From Dongia deserti (lineage in GTDB: Bacteria > Pseudomonadota > Alphaproteobacteria > Dongiales > Dongiaceae), in contig NZ_QORW01000004.1 of NCBI RefSeq assembly GCF_003574735.1, forward strand, positions 62,001 to 126,000: DNA of 64,000 nucleotides, read 5' to 3'. Within the stretch, counting starts at the first letter, position 1. Each line of letters begins with the position of its first letter. Positions 40,038 through 43,560 of this stretch are shown piece by piece. Below the pieces are notes generated by a model. That model worked only from the letters and a program-made list of their open reading frames with translations, searched no databases and was not told the origin of the DNA. Position numbers and translations under genes: made by a program.

Positions 40038-40045
40038 AGTTTTTG
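40038..40045 (+). repeat. target-site duplication, left copy
   Basis: AGTTTTTG immediately precedes the left inverted repeat and is repeated exactly at 43553-43560 after the right one. An 8-base duplication fits IS1-like transposition. Confidence 0.9.
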
Positions 40046-40064
40046 GGCAGTGTCTCAGTTTGAA
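40046..40064 (+). repeat. left terminal inverted repeat of the transposon
   Basis: GGCAGTGTCTCAGTTTGAA is the exact reverse complement of 43534-43552. Confidence 0.95.
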
Positions 40065-40085
40065 TTTTCCACAACCTTGCCATGC

Positions 40086-40114
40086 TTGACCGGTCACGGA
40101 TGCGTGCCTAGCTT
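40086..40114 (+). promoter_or_regulatory. probable promoter of the KGG-type gene
   Basis: TTGACC (40086-40091), 17-base spacer, TAGCTT (40109-40114). The expected transcription start would fall at or next to the ATG at 40121, suggesting a leaderless or nearly leaderless message. Confidence 0.45.
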
Positions 40115-40120
40115 CAGGGT

Positions 40121-40354
40121 ATGGCAAAGAAACCGAAGCGCCCGCGTGATCCCAGCCAGCTCGCCAAGTTCATTGTGGACTTGGCGACGGGCGAGATCGA
40201 GGACAAGACCGAGGACGGGAAAAACCCGGCTGCGGTCGCTCTTGGTCGCCTAGGGGGCCTTAAGGGCGGCAAGGCCAGGAAGAAGGCGCTGACCAAAGAG
40301 CAGCGCGCGGAGATCGCTAAGAAGGCAGCGGCGGCGCGCTGGAAGAAAGATTAG
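40121..40354 (+). CDS. small basic KGG-type protein (transposon passenger)
   Basis: A 77-residue, strongly basic protein: MAKKPKRPRDPSQLAKFIVD, LATGEIEDKTEDG, then AVALGRLGGLKGGKARKKAL and IAKKAAAARWKK. The GGLKGGKAR and KAAAARW patterns occur in small alphaproteobacterial chromosomal proteins of unknown function, with some resemblance to stress-induced KGG or histone-H1-like repeats. Nucleic-acid binding is likely from charge. First gene inside the left end of the transposon; its stop overlaps the convergent next gene. Confidence 0.7.
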   Translation: MAKKPKRPRDPSQLAKFIVDLATGEIEDKTEDGKNPAAVALGRLGGLKGGKARKKALTKEQRAEIAKKAAAARWKKD

Positions 40355-41148
40355 CTGCCGGATTTTTCGACAGACTTAATTTCGATCTGGTCTTTCTGGC
40401 CATAGGCCATCTGGAACGCCATTGACATCATCTGCAACCACATAACGCGCTCCTGCACGGACCAGTCAGACCCGGCCTTGGGTAGTTTTTGAATCAGCGC
40501 TCCGATCAATGGATCTGGCTTGTCCCCACCATCGTCGCCTCCACCGTTCTTACTGCCAGCATCATCACGCTCTGATCGGGGAGCTTCTCCAATTCCACTC
40601 GGCATGATGAGCCGATCACGACCCATTTCGAAGAAACCAGCCGCCTCGGCTGATCGCTCAAAGGCCTGTCGCGCCCGGTCAGTCTGCTTAGGGGCAACCC
40701 CCATTGATGCCATCTCGCGTTCGAGGGCTGAGGCCGGGGGCAATACCTTGCCGCGATAGTAGTTGTAGAGCTTTTCATAAAGCTCCACGGCCAAGAATGC
40801 CTTGGCCTTGGCTTCACGCTCTTGGGCTGAGTCTAAGACTGCGTGGCCTAGCTGAGTAAGCTTAACGCCACCTCCAGAGCGGTCCGATTCGATCAGATCA
40901 AACATGCGGGCAGTCGCTAGCCGAACTCGATACCCGCTGCTGTTCATGCTTAATCCGAGTTTCGCCGCCAACTGGTCGTGCTGGCAGAGTCCTCCGCCGG
41001 ACGTTTTGTGGACTCCATCGGCGACCTGGATTGCATCCGGCAATGCCATGTATGGGAACTCGATTGAGGACCGTTCCCGCTTGCCGCCGTCCCCGACAAG
41101 TTCCTTTATATCTTCGTCGCGGATTGGCGATGTCGTTGTGTCAGCCAT
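40351..41148 (-). CDS. hypothetical protein with winged-helix-like segment (transposon passenger)
   Basis: A 265-residue protein. The first 110 residues (FPYMALPDAIQVADGVHK, HDQLAAKLGLSMNSSGYRVR, ARMFDLIESDRSGGGVKLTQ, LGHAVLD) look like a helix-turn-helix followed by a beta wing. A helical middle with ELYEKLYNYYRGKVLPP, a Gly/Asp-rich linker and a C-terminal helix (VQERVMWLQMMSMAFQM) follow. No catalytic motif is seen. It has a strong sigma70-like promoter overlapped by repeated CCGCAAACA sites, so it may be a self-regulated DNA-binding protein. It is transcribed away from the tRNA-like unit. Confidence 0.65.
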   Translation of the reverse strand: MADTTTSPIRDEDIKELVGDGGKRERSSIEFPYMALPDAIQVADGVHKTSGGGLCQHDQLAAKLGLSMNSSGYRVRLATARMFDLIESDRSGGGVKLTQLGHAVLDSAQEREAKAKAFLAVELYEKLYNYYRGKVLPPASALEREMASMGVAPKQTDRARQAFERSAEAAGFFEMGRDRLIMPSGIGEAPRSERDDAGSKNGGGDDGGDKPDPLIGALIQKLPKAGSDWSVQERVMWLQMMSMAFQMAYGQKDQIEIKSVEKSGS

Positions 41149-41187
41149 GGATTAACTCCTCTGCGGGCGCGCCACTTTGATGGCTGG

Positions 41188-41216
41188 AACATAAGGAAAA
41201 CCGCAAACATAGTCAA
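41188..41216 (-). promoter_or_regulatory. sigma70-like promoter of the winged-helix passenger gene
   Basis: On the minus strand: TTGACT (41216-41211), 17-base spacer, TATGTT (41193-41188), about 40 bases before the start at 41148. Hexamers are close to consensus. Confidence 0.65.
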
Positions 41217-41252
41217 CTTAGTTTATGCGGACTCCGCAAACACGCCGCATAA
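41201..41252. promoter_or_regulatory. operator array: repeated CCGCAAACA sites and a dyad
   Basis: CCGCAAACA occurs at 41201-41209 and again at 41234-41242, 33 bases apart (about three helical turns). CCGCATAA follows near 41245-41252, and its inverse TTATGCGG precedes. The second site is half of the perfect dyad TGCGGACTCCGCA (41226-41238). The array covers the minus-strand promoter and lies just upstream of the plus-strand promoter, so one protein could control both. Confidence 0.6.
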
Positions 41253-41257
41253 TGCCC

Positions 41258-41287
41258 TTGACGATGCCATTTCACCTGCATTAACTA
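41258..41287 (+). promoter_or_regulatory. sigma70-like promoter of the small-ORF/tRNA-like unit
   Basis: TTGACG (41258-41263), 18-base spacer, TAACTA (41282-41287). The predicted start lies near the foot of the hairpin at 41292. The promoter is divergent from the winged-helix gene's. Confidence 0.6.
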
Positions 41288-41291
41288 ATGC

Positions 41292-41437
41292 AGCCGACGG
41301 CGAGTCGGCTATTCGCGCGCATGGAGGCGACGATGTCGAGGAGGGTAAGAGCCCTGCATGTCCTGCCGAGCGGCATGTGGGGCGATGAAAAACAGCAGGG
41401 CCGCTACCCGGCTCCGTGGAAGGAAAGGTAGCGGCCC
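41292..41437 (+). ncRNA. structured leader RNA with alternative hairpins
   Basis: Three stems are visible. AGCCGAC/GTCGGCT (41292-41298 with 41304-41310) forms a perfect 5' hairpin. GCCCTGC/GCAGGGC (41351-41357 with 41395-41401) and GGGCCGCTACC/GGTAGCGGCCC (41398-41408 with 41427-41437, perfect 11 bp) share bases 41398-41401 and so exclude each other. A 32-codon ORF spans both, so translation could choose between them. This resembles an attenuation or switch arrangement upstream of the tRNA-like gene. Confidence 0.5.
41333..41431 (+). CDS. 32-codon small ORF ahead of the tRNA-like gene
   Basis: ATG at 41333 has GGAGG at 5 bases distance. The peptide is basic at its start (MSRRVRALHVLPSG), with two Trp later (MWGDEKQQG, APWKER), and stops inside the 3' arm of the 11-bp hairpin. 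It could be a leader peptide or a small effector. No relative is known to me. The good RBS and its position between promoter and tRNA-like gene support translation, but such a short frame can be chance. Confidence 0.4.
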   Translation: MSRRVRALHVLPSGMWGDEKQQGRYPAPWKER

Positions 41438-41456
41438 CTAATCGGCACCGGAATTA

Positions 41457-41532
41457 GCGCTTGTAGCTCAACAGGATAGAGCAGGTTCCTACTAAGTCCC
41501 AGATGCCCGTTCGAGTCGGGCCAAGCGCGCCA
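41457..41532 (+). tRNA. tRNA-like gene with encoded CCA and disrupted anticodon stem
   Basis: The 76-base sequence folds as a tRNA: 7-bp acceptor stem GCGCTTG/CAAGCGC, D-stem GCTC/GAGC with GG in a 9-base loop, T-arm GCCCG-TTCGAGT-CGGGC with five perfect pairs, discriminator G and CCA at 41530-41532. The anticodon arm is GGTTC-CTACTAA-GTCCC: only three of five pairs form and the loop would present ACT, an anticodon not normally used by bacteria. The body resembles tRNA-Arg (acceptor end, GGATAGAGC D-arm). It is a non-decoding tRNA relative, a pseudo-tRNA, or an RNA with another role. A terminator follows 8 bases later. Confidence 0.7.
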
Positions 41533-41540
41533 TCCACGGT

Positions 41541-41573
41541 GACCAGGGGAGTATATCCCCTGGTCCTTTTTTT
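41541..41573 (+). terminator. rho-independent terminator after the tRNA-like gene
   Basis: Perfect 10-bp hairpin GACCAGGGGA-GTATA-TCCCCTGGTC followed by C and seven T. It ends the small transcription unit before the transposase gene. Confidence 0.92.
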
Positions 41574-41619
41574 GTGAATCCCCTTGAAAATGCGCGACCG
41601 CTCAAGCATATTGTTCAGT

Positions 41620-42441
41620 ATGAACAGACTGGACATCAGCAAGCGCGCACAGATCATCGGCCTTCTGGTCGAGGGCAACAGCCTCCGCGCCGCTTCCCGC
41701 CTCGCTGATGTTTCAATCAATACTGTGACCAAGCTGCTGGTCGATGTGGGCCGCGCCGCTGCCGAGTATCAGGACAAGACGCTGCGCAAACTGCCCTGCA
41801 ATCGCGTGCAGGTCGATGAGATTTGGTCGTTCGTCTATGCGAAGGCGAAGAACGTTGCTGGCGCCAAGTCCGCTCCTGATAACGCTGGCGACGTGTGGAC
41901 GTGGACCGCGATCTGCGCTGACACGAAGATCGTTCCGACTTGGCACGTCGGCAGCCGCGATGCGGAGTGCGCTTTGACGTTCATGGACGACCTGGCGCGC
42001 CGCCTCACCAATCGCGTGCAGCTCACGTCAGACGGCCACAAGGCCTATCTGGACGCGGTTGACGGCGCTTTCGGCGGCGACATCGACTATTCGATGCTGG
42101 TCAAGATTTACGGCAAGCCATGGGAAGTCGAGAAGCGTTACAGCCCGATGGTCTGCACAGGCGCTCGCAAGCAGCCGATGATTGGTAATCCAGATCCGAA
42201 GCACATTTCGACCAGCTATGTTGAGCGGCAGAACCTCAACATGCGCATGTCGATGCGGCGCTTCACTCGGTTGACCAATGCGTTCTCAAAGAAGATCGAA
42301 AACCACGCGCACGCGATCGCGCTGCACTTCATGTATTACAACTTCGGCCGCATTCATAAGACGCTGCGAATCACTCCAGCGATGGCTGCGGGCGTTGCGC
42401 AACACGTCTGGTCTCTGGAGGAGATTGCCGCCCTCGCTTAA
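41620..42441 (+). CDS. IS1-type transposase
   Basis: A 273-residue DDE-type transposase. The helix-turn-helix is LVEGNSLRAASRLADVSINT. The catalytic core shows VQVDEIWSFVYAK (first acidic residue), a beta-strand WTWTAICADTKIV, LTSDGHKAYLDAV (second Asp) and STSYVERQNLNMRMSMRRFT (Glu), the order of the IS1 transposase domain. Homologous proteins in alphaproteobacteria are usually labelled IS1 family. The ORF opens with a TTG at 41584, but MNRLDISKRAQ at 41620 is the family start. It lies immediately after the terminator of the tRNA-like unit and is intact. Confidence 0.9.
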   Translation: MNRLDISKRAQIIGLLVEGNSLRAASRLADVSINTVTKLLVDVGRAAAEYQDKTLRKLPCNRVQVDEIWSFVYAKAKNVAGAKSAPDNAGDVWTWTAICADTKIVPTWHVGSRDAECALTFMDDLARRLTNRVQLTSDGHKAYLDAVDGAFGGDIDYSMLVKIYGKPWEVEKRYSPMVCTGARKQPMIGNPDPKHISTSYVERQNLNMRMSMRRFTRLTNAFSKKIENHAHAIALHFMYYNFGRIHKTLRITPAMAAGVAQHVWSLEEIAALA

Positions 42442-42445
42442 GAGA

Positions 42446-42715
42446 TCACTCAGCCGCCATCGCCATCGGCCGCCGGACACCGTCTCGCGCCATCAGGTAG
42501 ATATCGATTAGACGAAGGGCTGCATCGTATGATACAGCTTTAGCGAGAATTTCGATTCCGGATGAGGGCCTCACCGCGTCGAATTCGTAGATGAAGTAGC
42601 CGGTGTCATCACCGAGCGACTGGGCGTGGTTCGCCTCAAAGGCATCTATCGAGACCGGCGCGACGCAGACCTCTTTCCCGTCAGGTGTTCTGGCAGAGAA
42701 TAGTAGGTGTTTCAT
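42446..42715 (-). CDS. small hypothetical protein, 89 aa (transposon passenger)
   Basis: Reads MKHLLFSARTPDGKEVCVAP, then ANHAQSLGDDTGYFIYEFD and ILAKAVSYDAALRLIDIYL: an alpha/beta pattern typical of a small soluble protein. GGGGG lies before the ATG. Its start overlaps that of the divergent 260-residue gene by two bases (CATG), so at least one start is probably misplaced. No family recognised; its stop is 5 bases from the transposase stop (convergent). Confidence 0.45.
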   Translation of the reverse strand: MKHLLFSARTPDGKEVCVAPVSIDAFEANHAQSLGDDTGYFIYEFDAVRPSSGIEILAKAVSYDAALRLIDIYLMARDGVRRPMAMAAE

Positions 42716-43496
42716 GGCAGTGCCCCCAGGCAAGATTTGGCGTGTTAATAGGCGCCCTCGATTCACGTTGCTTGAACTTGGCGAATACATGGTCGCGGAC
42801 GACAAGCAGCGCGAAACAATGCGTCGCAACCTGAAGTACGAACGCATCAGTCGCTCGCTCATTTACTCCAAGTTGCACCAAGCTGTATCCAGTTTCCTCG
42901 CTAGCCCCGTTCGGGATCGATCGGTATTGGCCCGTTGCCGCGCAATGATTGAGACAGAGAGGGATACTGCCGAGAGCCCCCAACGGCGCGATAACGCGAT
43001 CTACGCATTGCGGAGCCTTGACCAATTTGAAGCGAGCTTGAATGCGCTGCCCATTGCCGGGTTGGTTATTGAGCGTGCCCCGCTTGCCCATCCTCACATC
43101 ATTCATGGCGTGAGGGTCAGCATTCAGCCTACCGTGCTGGTGCGCGTAAACCGACCGAGAGGAGCGCCGCTGCGCGGAGCTATCGCCGTCGACCTCGCCA
43201 AGGGTGACACGCCGAAGTCTGAAGCCATTAAGGCGCGAATGACACAGGCGATGACCTACTCGGCCATGCTGCTCCATGAGCATGTCGGAAATTCTGTGAT
43301 TGGCGATGGGGAGAGATCGTCCCCGGATCATTGCCAAGTGTTCCATTCCCATAGGCAGGAGCTTGTGTGCTCGCCAACCAACTACCGCCGAGACCTCGCC
43401 AACATGGAAGCCAGTTGTCGAACGGCGGCGGCTCTGTGGCAAGACATCGAACCGCCTGCCAGCTTCGATCCTGCCCTGGCAATATACAGAAACTGA
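42714..43496 (+). CDS. hypothetical protein, 260 aa (transposon passenger)
   Basis: The protein begins AVPPGKIWRVNRRPRFTLLE, continues with a helical portion (RNLKYERISRSLIYSKLHQA, RDNAIYALRSLDQFEASLN) and a beta-rich portion (GVRVSIQPTVLVRVNRPRG, GAIAVDLAKGDTPKSE), and ends HCQVFHSHRQELVCSP, then IEPPASFDPALAIYR. I think similar uncharacterised proteins occur in other Alphaproteobacteria, but can name no function. VDLAKGDTPKSE with a preceding basic motif has a nuclease-like look (D...K spacing), which is only a guess. Last passenger, ending 38 bases inside the right inverted repeat. Confidence 0.6.
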   Translation: MAVPPGKIWRVNRRPRFTLLELGEYMVADDKQRETMRRNLKYERISRSLIYSKLHQAVSSFLASPVRDRSVLARCRAMIETERDTAESPQRRDNAIYALRSLDQFEASLNALPIAGLVIERAPLAHPHIIHGVRVSIQPTVLVRVNRPRGAPLRGAIAVDLAKGDTPKSEAIKARMTQAMTYSAMLLHEHVGNSVIGDGERSSPDHCQVFHSHRQELVCSPTNYRRDLANMEASCRTAAALWQDIEPPASFDPALAIYRN

Positions 43497-43533
43497 GGGT
43501 CGCTGTACATACCCTTGTCAAGCCTCAGTATTT

Positions 43534-43552
43534 TTCAAACTGAGACACTGCC
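43534..43552 (-). repeat. right terminal inverted repeat of the transposon
   Basis: TTCAAACTGAGACACTGCC, the exact reverse complement of 40046-40064. Confidence 0.95.
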
Positions 43553-43560
43553 AGTTTTTG
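43553..43560 (+). repeat. target-site duplication, right copy
   Basis: AGTTTTTG, identical to 40038-40045. Confidence 0.9.

Follow-up and report, generated by a model that had tools for sequence, protein, structure and literature searches.

At positions 41457 to 41532 of the window, i.e., the stretch of 64,000 nucleotides of Dongia deserti DNA analysed here, lies a gene with the body of a tRNA and an anticodon arm that is poorly paired and carries an anticodon foreign to that body. Is such a gene a captured tRNA on its way to decay or a maintained one, and in the latter case, what could it do for the DNA that carries it? ARAGORN calls exactly 41457-41532 on the + strand, with anticodon act at position 35, as the sole tRNA in the whole window, and Rfam RF00005 matches it with 49.7 bits (E 1.2e-7), no other RNA family being matched in the window; the score is the second-lowest among the genome's 46 tRNA hits. 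The acceptor stem GCGCTTG/CAAGCGC is paired at 7/7 positions, the D stem GCTC/GAGC at 4/4 and the T stem GCCCG/CGGGC at 5/5, with GCCA encoded after it, and the cloverleaf displays the conserved D-loop and T-loop bases. Pairing is incomplete in the anticodon stem GGTTC/GTCCC, where the two non-pairs U29.C41 and U30.U40 leave 3/5 pairs in the canonical register, short of a paired 5-bp stem. The closing C31-G39 and the two outer G-C pairs are intact, and U33 is present in the loop CTACTAA, which is a normal one; shifting the stem by one would give 4/5 pairs, two of which are G-U, with the loss of U33. In the RNA fold, the anticodon arm is essentially unformed and mostly open. On all these structural points, namely a tRNA-like gene in this interval, intact acceptor, D and T stems of 7, 4 and 5 pairs, an encoded CCA, two non-pairs in the anticodon stem and the anticodon ACT, the first-pass annotation agrees with ARAGORN, Rfam and direct reading of the sequence.

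Its proposal of an Arg-like body likewise stands, since the nearest references to the window tRNA deprived of its anticodon arm are of Arg type, the closest being a tRNA-Arg-CCT in a Pseudomonas plasmid tRNA array (80% identity). This array belongs to plasmid pBASL58 of Pseudomonas sp. Leaf58 (L048) and is missing from the feature table of that plasmid. The Arg-type body is accompanied by A20, C35 and U36, as in tRNA-Arg; the anticodon ACT is none of the Arg anticodons (UCU, CCU or NCG), and the variable region of 4 nt is not the long variable arm for SerRS of a tRNA-Ser. The gene is present as a single copy in a genome that also has normal Arg tRNAs (TCT, CCT, CCG and ACG), and is thus not needed for the decoding of Arg codons. 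The same tRNA with a repaired anticodon stem, which the first-pass annotation had named as the sign of a simple sequence variant or error, was found neither in the genome nor in the 96 genomes searched, and a simple variant of a host tRNA is rejected on that basis. Elsewhere, a host tRNA-like hit to which ARAGORN could assign no normal anticodon (L057, G000:C48:73734-74080) adjoins a low-scoring second tRNA hit.

What had been missed at first pass is that the tRNA is the cargo of a transposon, inserted between ssb and uvrA and present as a single copy in the genome. The features of this element, in window positions, are the following.

40038 to 40045, no strand: left target-site duplication AGTTTTTG, 8 bp, from the sequence and by script
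40046 to 43552, + strand: IS1-family transposon of 3,507 bp with the tRNA as cargo, with perfect 19-bp terminal inverted repeats, a low-GC island
40046 to 40064, + strand: left terminal inverted repeat GGCAGTGTCTCAGTTTGAA, perfect over 19 bp, the same end motif occurring in relatives
40121 to 40354, + strand: gene of a 77-aa lysine-rich protein with a GG.KGG.AR...RW motif, a core gene of the family
40351 to 41148, - strand: gene of a 265-aa protein, putatively HTH-like, with homologues beside several tRNA-bearing elements
41398 to 41437, + strand: hairpin GGGCCGCTACC/GGTAGCGGCCC upstream of the tRNA (fold z -2.9)
41457 to 41532, + strand: Arg-type tRNA gene, anticodon ACT (41491-41493), with 2 non-pairs in the anticodon stem (41484-41488 / 41496-41500)
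41541 to 41573, + strand: intrinsic terminator directly after the tRNA, a 10-bp stem plus T run (fold z -4.6)
41584 to 41612, + strand: promoter-like site of the transposase, similarly spaced in relatives
41620 to 42441, + strand: IS1-family (DDE) transposase, above the cut-off of Pfam DDE_Tnp_IS1
42446 to 42862, - strand: small ORF, part of which resembles by eye a small divergent ORF found in the corresponding position of the relative L076
42717 to 43496, + strand: gene of a 259-aa cargo protein with homologues in L076, L291, L355, L342 and L273
43534 to 43552, - strand: right terminal inverted repeat, perfect over 19 bp
43553 to 43560, no strand: right target-site duplication AGTTTTTG, 8 bp, from the sequence and by script

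Terminal inverted repeats with a short target duplication define the element as a transposon, and the transposase is of the IS1-type DDE kind, with 30.7 bits against Pfam PF03400 (cut-off 24.1); against NCBIfam IS1 it reaches 63.8 bits, below the cut-off of 100. The gene of the 77-aa protein is near-universal in the transposon family (109/110 relatives having both ends) and its product has no Pfam match, while the 259-aa cargo protein has none above cut-off and the 265-aa protein none in Pfam, PADLOC or PDB; throughout the proteins neighbouring the tRNA, no defence system or known family was matched in these three resources. The HTH-like gene is associated with tRNA carriage (p=5e-4), an association given no weight here, since carriers were used to build the model and bias it; that of the downstream 259-aa gene with tRNAs is small. 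The predicted transposase promoter, like those of relatives, lies very close to the ATG, which would give an mRNA with almost no leader. At 41584-41620, as in relatives, a palindrome-like ATGCTTGA..TCAAGCAT recurs at the transposase promoter.

Scans of genomes and viral contigs with the transposase yielded about 245-250 distinct relatives, the genome-contig scan contributing the best 80 of 548 matches and many relatives being metagenome-assembled or viral contigs. Where both flanks are available, most show the ends GGTAGTG(T/G)..CAGTTTGAA and 8-bp duplications. About 25 of these 245-250 or so transposons carry a tRNA, a count that leaves out, as no ends were found, the tRNAs of L181/L330, L332 and L306 and the second ones of L136 and L139, which probably belong to a host or a phage; in L140, an odd tRNA-like match whose D loop is enlarged was left unclassified. 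Every element tRNA with an assignable body bears an anticodon that is non-cognate to it. The class I carriers are nearly all of Arg type and mostly have (i) ACT (the window, L360 and L073, the body of the last being ambiguous) or (ii) GCT (L076, L092, L097, L132, L219 and L291), the others having CCC, CGT or GGA and the bodies of L139 and L166 being other and unclear. The class II carriers are of Ser type, with TTA (L074, L263, L271 and L373), TCG (L078), TAA (L079) or TAG (L082), or of Leu type, with TTA (L153). The window tRNA is, as such, a member of a recurring mobile set in which the anticodon is mismatched to the body. The UUA Ser-type tRNAs resemble ochre suppressors and recur in four related transposons (L074, L263, L271 and L373) with anticodon stems that differ and are mostly paired; they sit at about -1190 on the minus strand in the first three and downstream in L373. 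No tRNA of the 8/4 or 9/3 type occurs in this transposon family, and identity with the allo-tRNAs of that architecture is rejected for the related elements.

Carriage is labile. It takes 23 changes for 24 carriers on a transposase tree quickly built from 211 rows, so that the tRNAs appear to be gained and lost often. Four elements with very similar transposases have four different contents, namely a toxin-antitoxin-like region (L072), a Ser-type UUA tRNA (L074), an Arg-type GCU tRNA (L076) and, in L083, an Arg body near-identical to that of L076 with an unrelated anticodon arm and the anticodon CCC; the comparison of L076 with L083 suggests rapid change or replacement of the anticodon arm. By eye, HigBA-, RelE/XRE-, HicAB- and SocA-like toxin-antitoxin genes are seen in L072, L073, L078, L139 and L095, in the cargo space that also houses the tRNAs. 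In L310 (=L184) and L075, the acceptor and T arms are intact or nearly so and the anticodon arm is enlarged or replaced.

Neutral decay of a tRNA captured by the transposon would be in line with such scattered carriage, with the imperfect anticodon stem and with the low score among the genome's tRNAs. The distribution of the damage nonetheless makes a pseudogene decidedly improbable. In a motif scan where only the D arm and the T loop were fixed, acceptor and T stems being free, 17 hits had full acceptor (7/7) and T (5/5) stems, 14/17 being counted carriers and three uncounted ones; two more were slightly damaged and the remainder was background. Among class I carriers, mismatches amount to 2/105 in the acceptor stem, 0/75 in the T stem and 11/75 in the anticodon stem taken in its most favourable register, i.e., 11/75 against 2/180 for acceptor plus T (p=3.7e-5), and strong covariation is found in the Arg-type set, where acceptor and T stems covary. 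Decay would also have to produce the same mismatches, with compensated neighbours, in divergent copies, and cognate anticodons are absent: that all assignable element tRNAs are non-cognate is unlike the outcome of neutral drift. Judging from these stem scan and covariation patterns, the window tRNA is a well-preserved gene whose cloverleaf outside the decoding arm appears to be under selection, which upholds the earlier view that change is confined to that arm.

Whether the arm itself is broken can be appreciated from other ACT tRNAs. A search of viral contigs with the motif AGGTNCCTACTAAGTNCC retrieved the L360 element together with L378, a phage contig that encodes RecT and exonuclease VIII; a second one with GGATAGAGC-N6-CTACTAA, in which the stem is unconstrained and the loop fixed by the pattern, gave further ACT tRNAs, several of them on contigs where terminase, partition or antiterminator genes are present. 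Arg-type ACT tRNAs thus also occur as lone genes on phage contigs devoid of such a transposase; a body-pattern search of viral contigs returned ordinary phage Arg tRNAs. Over 10 distinct ACT tRNAs, pairing reaches 98.6% in the acceptor, 100% in the D, 100% in the T and 70% in the anticodon helix, where pair 29-41 fails in 6/10 and pair 30-40 in 5/10, the loop-closing pair fails in 0/10 and changes in the outer pairs are compensated. L393 (CCTTC/GTCGG) has the exact inner mismatches of the window (U.C and U.U) with outer pairs C-G, C-G in place of G-C, G-C, and mismatches at these positions are also present in L378 and partly in L360. The whole 7-nt anticodon loop is common to the window and L360, loop conservation being independent only for the window, L360 and L073, which were found by their transposases, since the phage search pattern fixed the loop. 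In this small ACT set, an anticodon-stem mismatch is present in 10/12 tRNAs against 3/34 ordinary Arg tRNAs (p=4e-6), and in 5/15 GCT tRNAs. The window subtype, then, combines an Arg-type body, the anticodon ACU and a weak stem, typically with 29.41/30.40 mismatches, and is found on IS1-family transposons and phage contigs. Recurring in this way, the mid-stem mismatches give the impression of an anticodon arm that is weak and conserved, and not of a broken one. The loss of decoding put forward by the first-pass annotation is accordingly unsupported as stated, with these mismatches recurring in divergent ACT relatives and with outer and loop-closing pairs that covary. A chromosomal tRNA-Arg-UCU from another genome of the class (L380, genome G340) has the anticodon arm GGTGC CTTCTAA GCTCC with a U29.U41 mismatch, and one mid-stem mismatch there indicates that a working tRNA can tolerate a weak arm.

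As to function, our tentative reading, which we hold at somewhat less than even confidence, is that the window tRNA may still be charged with Arg and read AGU and AGC (Ser) codons weakly, i.e., act as an attenuated Ser-to-Arg missense suppressor. Transcription would yield a short RNA that stops at the gene's own terminator and is then processed; ArgRS would still charge it with Arg, because A20, C35 and U36 are present; the charged tRNA would read AGU/AGC codons poorly, and the weak anticodon stem would keep the resulting mistranslation tolerable. Candidate gains for the element would be a host stress response, the masking of mutations or interference with competitors. Arg-type bodies favour ACU and GCU, anticodons that retain C35 and U36, and class II bodies are those of Ser or Leu, whose synthetases, SerRS and LeuRS, ignore the anticodon. 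According to a review (PMC7609411), allo-tRNAs with non-cognate anticodons insert the amino acid of the body in E. coli. AGY codons are not scarce in the transposases of ACU/GCU carriers and sit at conserved Ser positions, so that strong misreading would harm the element itself and any misreading must be weak, which fits the weak stem and equally fits the absence of decoding. Against suppression, moreover, the anticodon arm hardly folds in silico.

The main rival to the suppressor reading is possible, if unlikely: a tRNA-like RNA that would not decode and would be processed, perhaps charged, and serve as a structural element, e.g., an RNase P/Z site and a terminator insulating the transposase from read-through. 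In many carriers the tRNA lies on the + strand and precedes the transposase start by 157-235 nt, which agrees with such a role; in some it is elsewhere or on the opposite strand, and minus-strand or far-upstream copies (L074, L263, L271 and L097) as well as copies downstream of the transposase (L393 and L373) cannot insulate it. A terminator follows the window tRNA, between it and the transposase, with a similar hairpin in L360; lone ACT tRNAs on phage contigs have no such transposase to protect. The top half of the molecule is preserved and the anticodon arm varies, most clearly between L076 and L083, and the arms of L075 and L310 could not decode normally, which argues for a non-decoding role in at least some elements; a purely structural role would, however, leave the bias to ACU/GCU and UUA unexplained.

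Two other readings involve the code itself. The loop CUACUAA is one base apart from the loop CUACGAA of the TadA substrate, and deamination of A34 by TadA could let the tRNA read AGA (Arg) plus AGU/AGC, replacing a tRNA-Arg-UCU depleted by nucleases or sequestering RNAs, with an altered arm that escapes recognition. Lone copies on phages would suit such a replacement; yet TadA prefers an ACG context, the route is closed to GCU carriers and the element has no recognisable tRNA-depleting or defence gene of a known kind, all of which makes it improbable. Suppressor tRNAs that serve recoded genes are known from phages, and by analogy the element could read its own genes through its tRNA under a private code. 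This is hardly credible, since the transposase codons for such tRNAs fall at positions of conserved standard amino acids, and the transposases of UUA carriers show no convincing in-frame TAA; the codon positions rule it out for the transposase, the other cargo genes having been judged by eye.

Among known systems, a close likeness is to allo-tRNAs (Mukai et al., 2017, via the review PMC7609411), described there as bacterial tRNAs whose very diverse anticodons are at odds with the body, mostly of Ser identity and with 8/4 or 9/3 acceptor branches, one group overlapping a transposon-related ORF and carrying stem-destabilising changes. The window tRNA has in common with them the non-cognate anticodon and a hinted transposon link; it differs in its 7/5 branch and Arg-type body. 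With IS1-family elements bearing passengers, the transposon has in common the IS1-type DDE transposase, inverted ends, 8-bp duplication and cargo genes, and differs from them in a transposase under the NCBIfam IS1 cut-off, the conserved 77-aa protein and a tRNA in about a tenth of its members. Like phage-encoded and suppressor tRNAs, the window subtype is mobile and often a lone gene on phage contigs, whereas the Arg tRNAs usual in phages carry Arg anticodons, with anticodon stems that are mostly paired. The tRNA-Arg-UCU of L380 is similar in its mid-stem mismatch, but has an Arg anticodon and one mismatch only, and lies beside tRNA-Pro as in other genomes. A partial literature search found no paper on Arg-type ACU tRNAs on transposons or phages and no text on an IS1 subgroup with passenger genes.

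Non-cognate tRNAs of bacteria have so far been known chiefly as allo-tRNAs of metagenomic origin that lack a clear genetic home. Similar mismatched tRNAs are here given a defined vehicle, i.e., an IS1-type transposon family that seemingly also carries toxin-antitoxin modules, and the Arg-type ACU subtype is common to these transposons and to phages, so that one can directly test why miscoding tRNAs are carried by mobile DNA. A very improbable further reading is a code-level addiction in which weak missense and nonsense suppressor tRNAs of transposons and phages would mask host mutations at low cost until hosts become dependent on them; through the fixation of suppressed mutations, the element would then be retained much as a toxin-antitoxin module is, but with no toxin involved. 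More generally, a conserved weak anticodon stem would constitute a natural example of tuned tRNA decoding strength.
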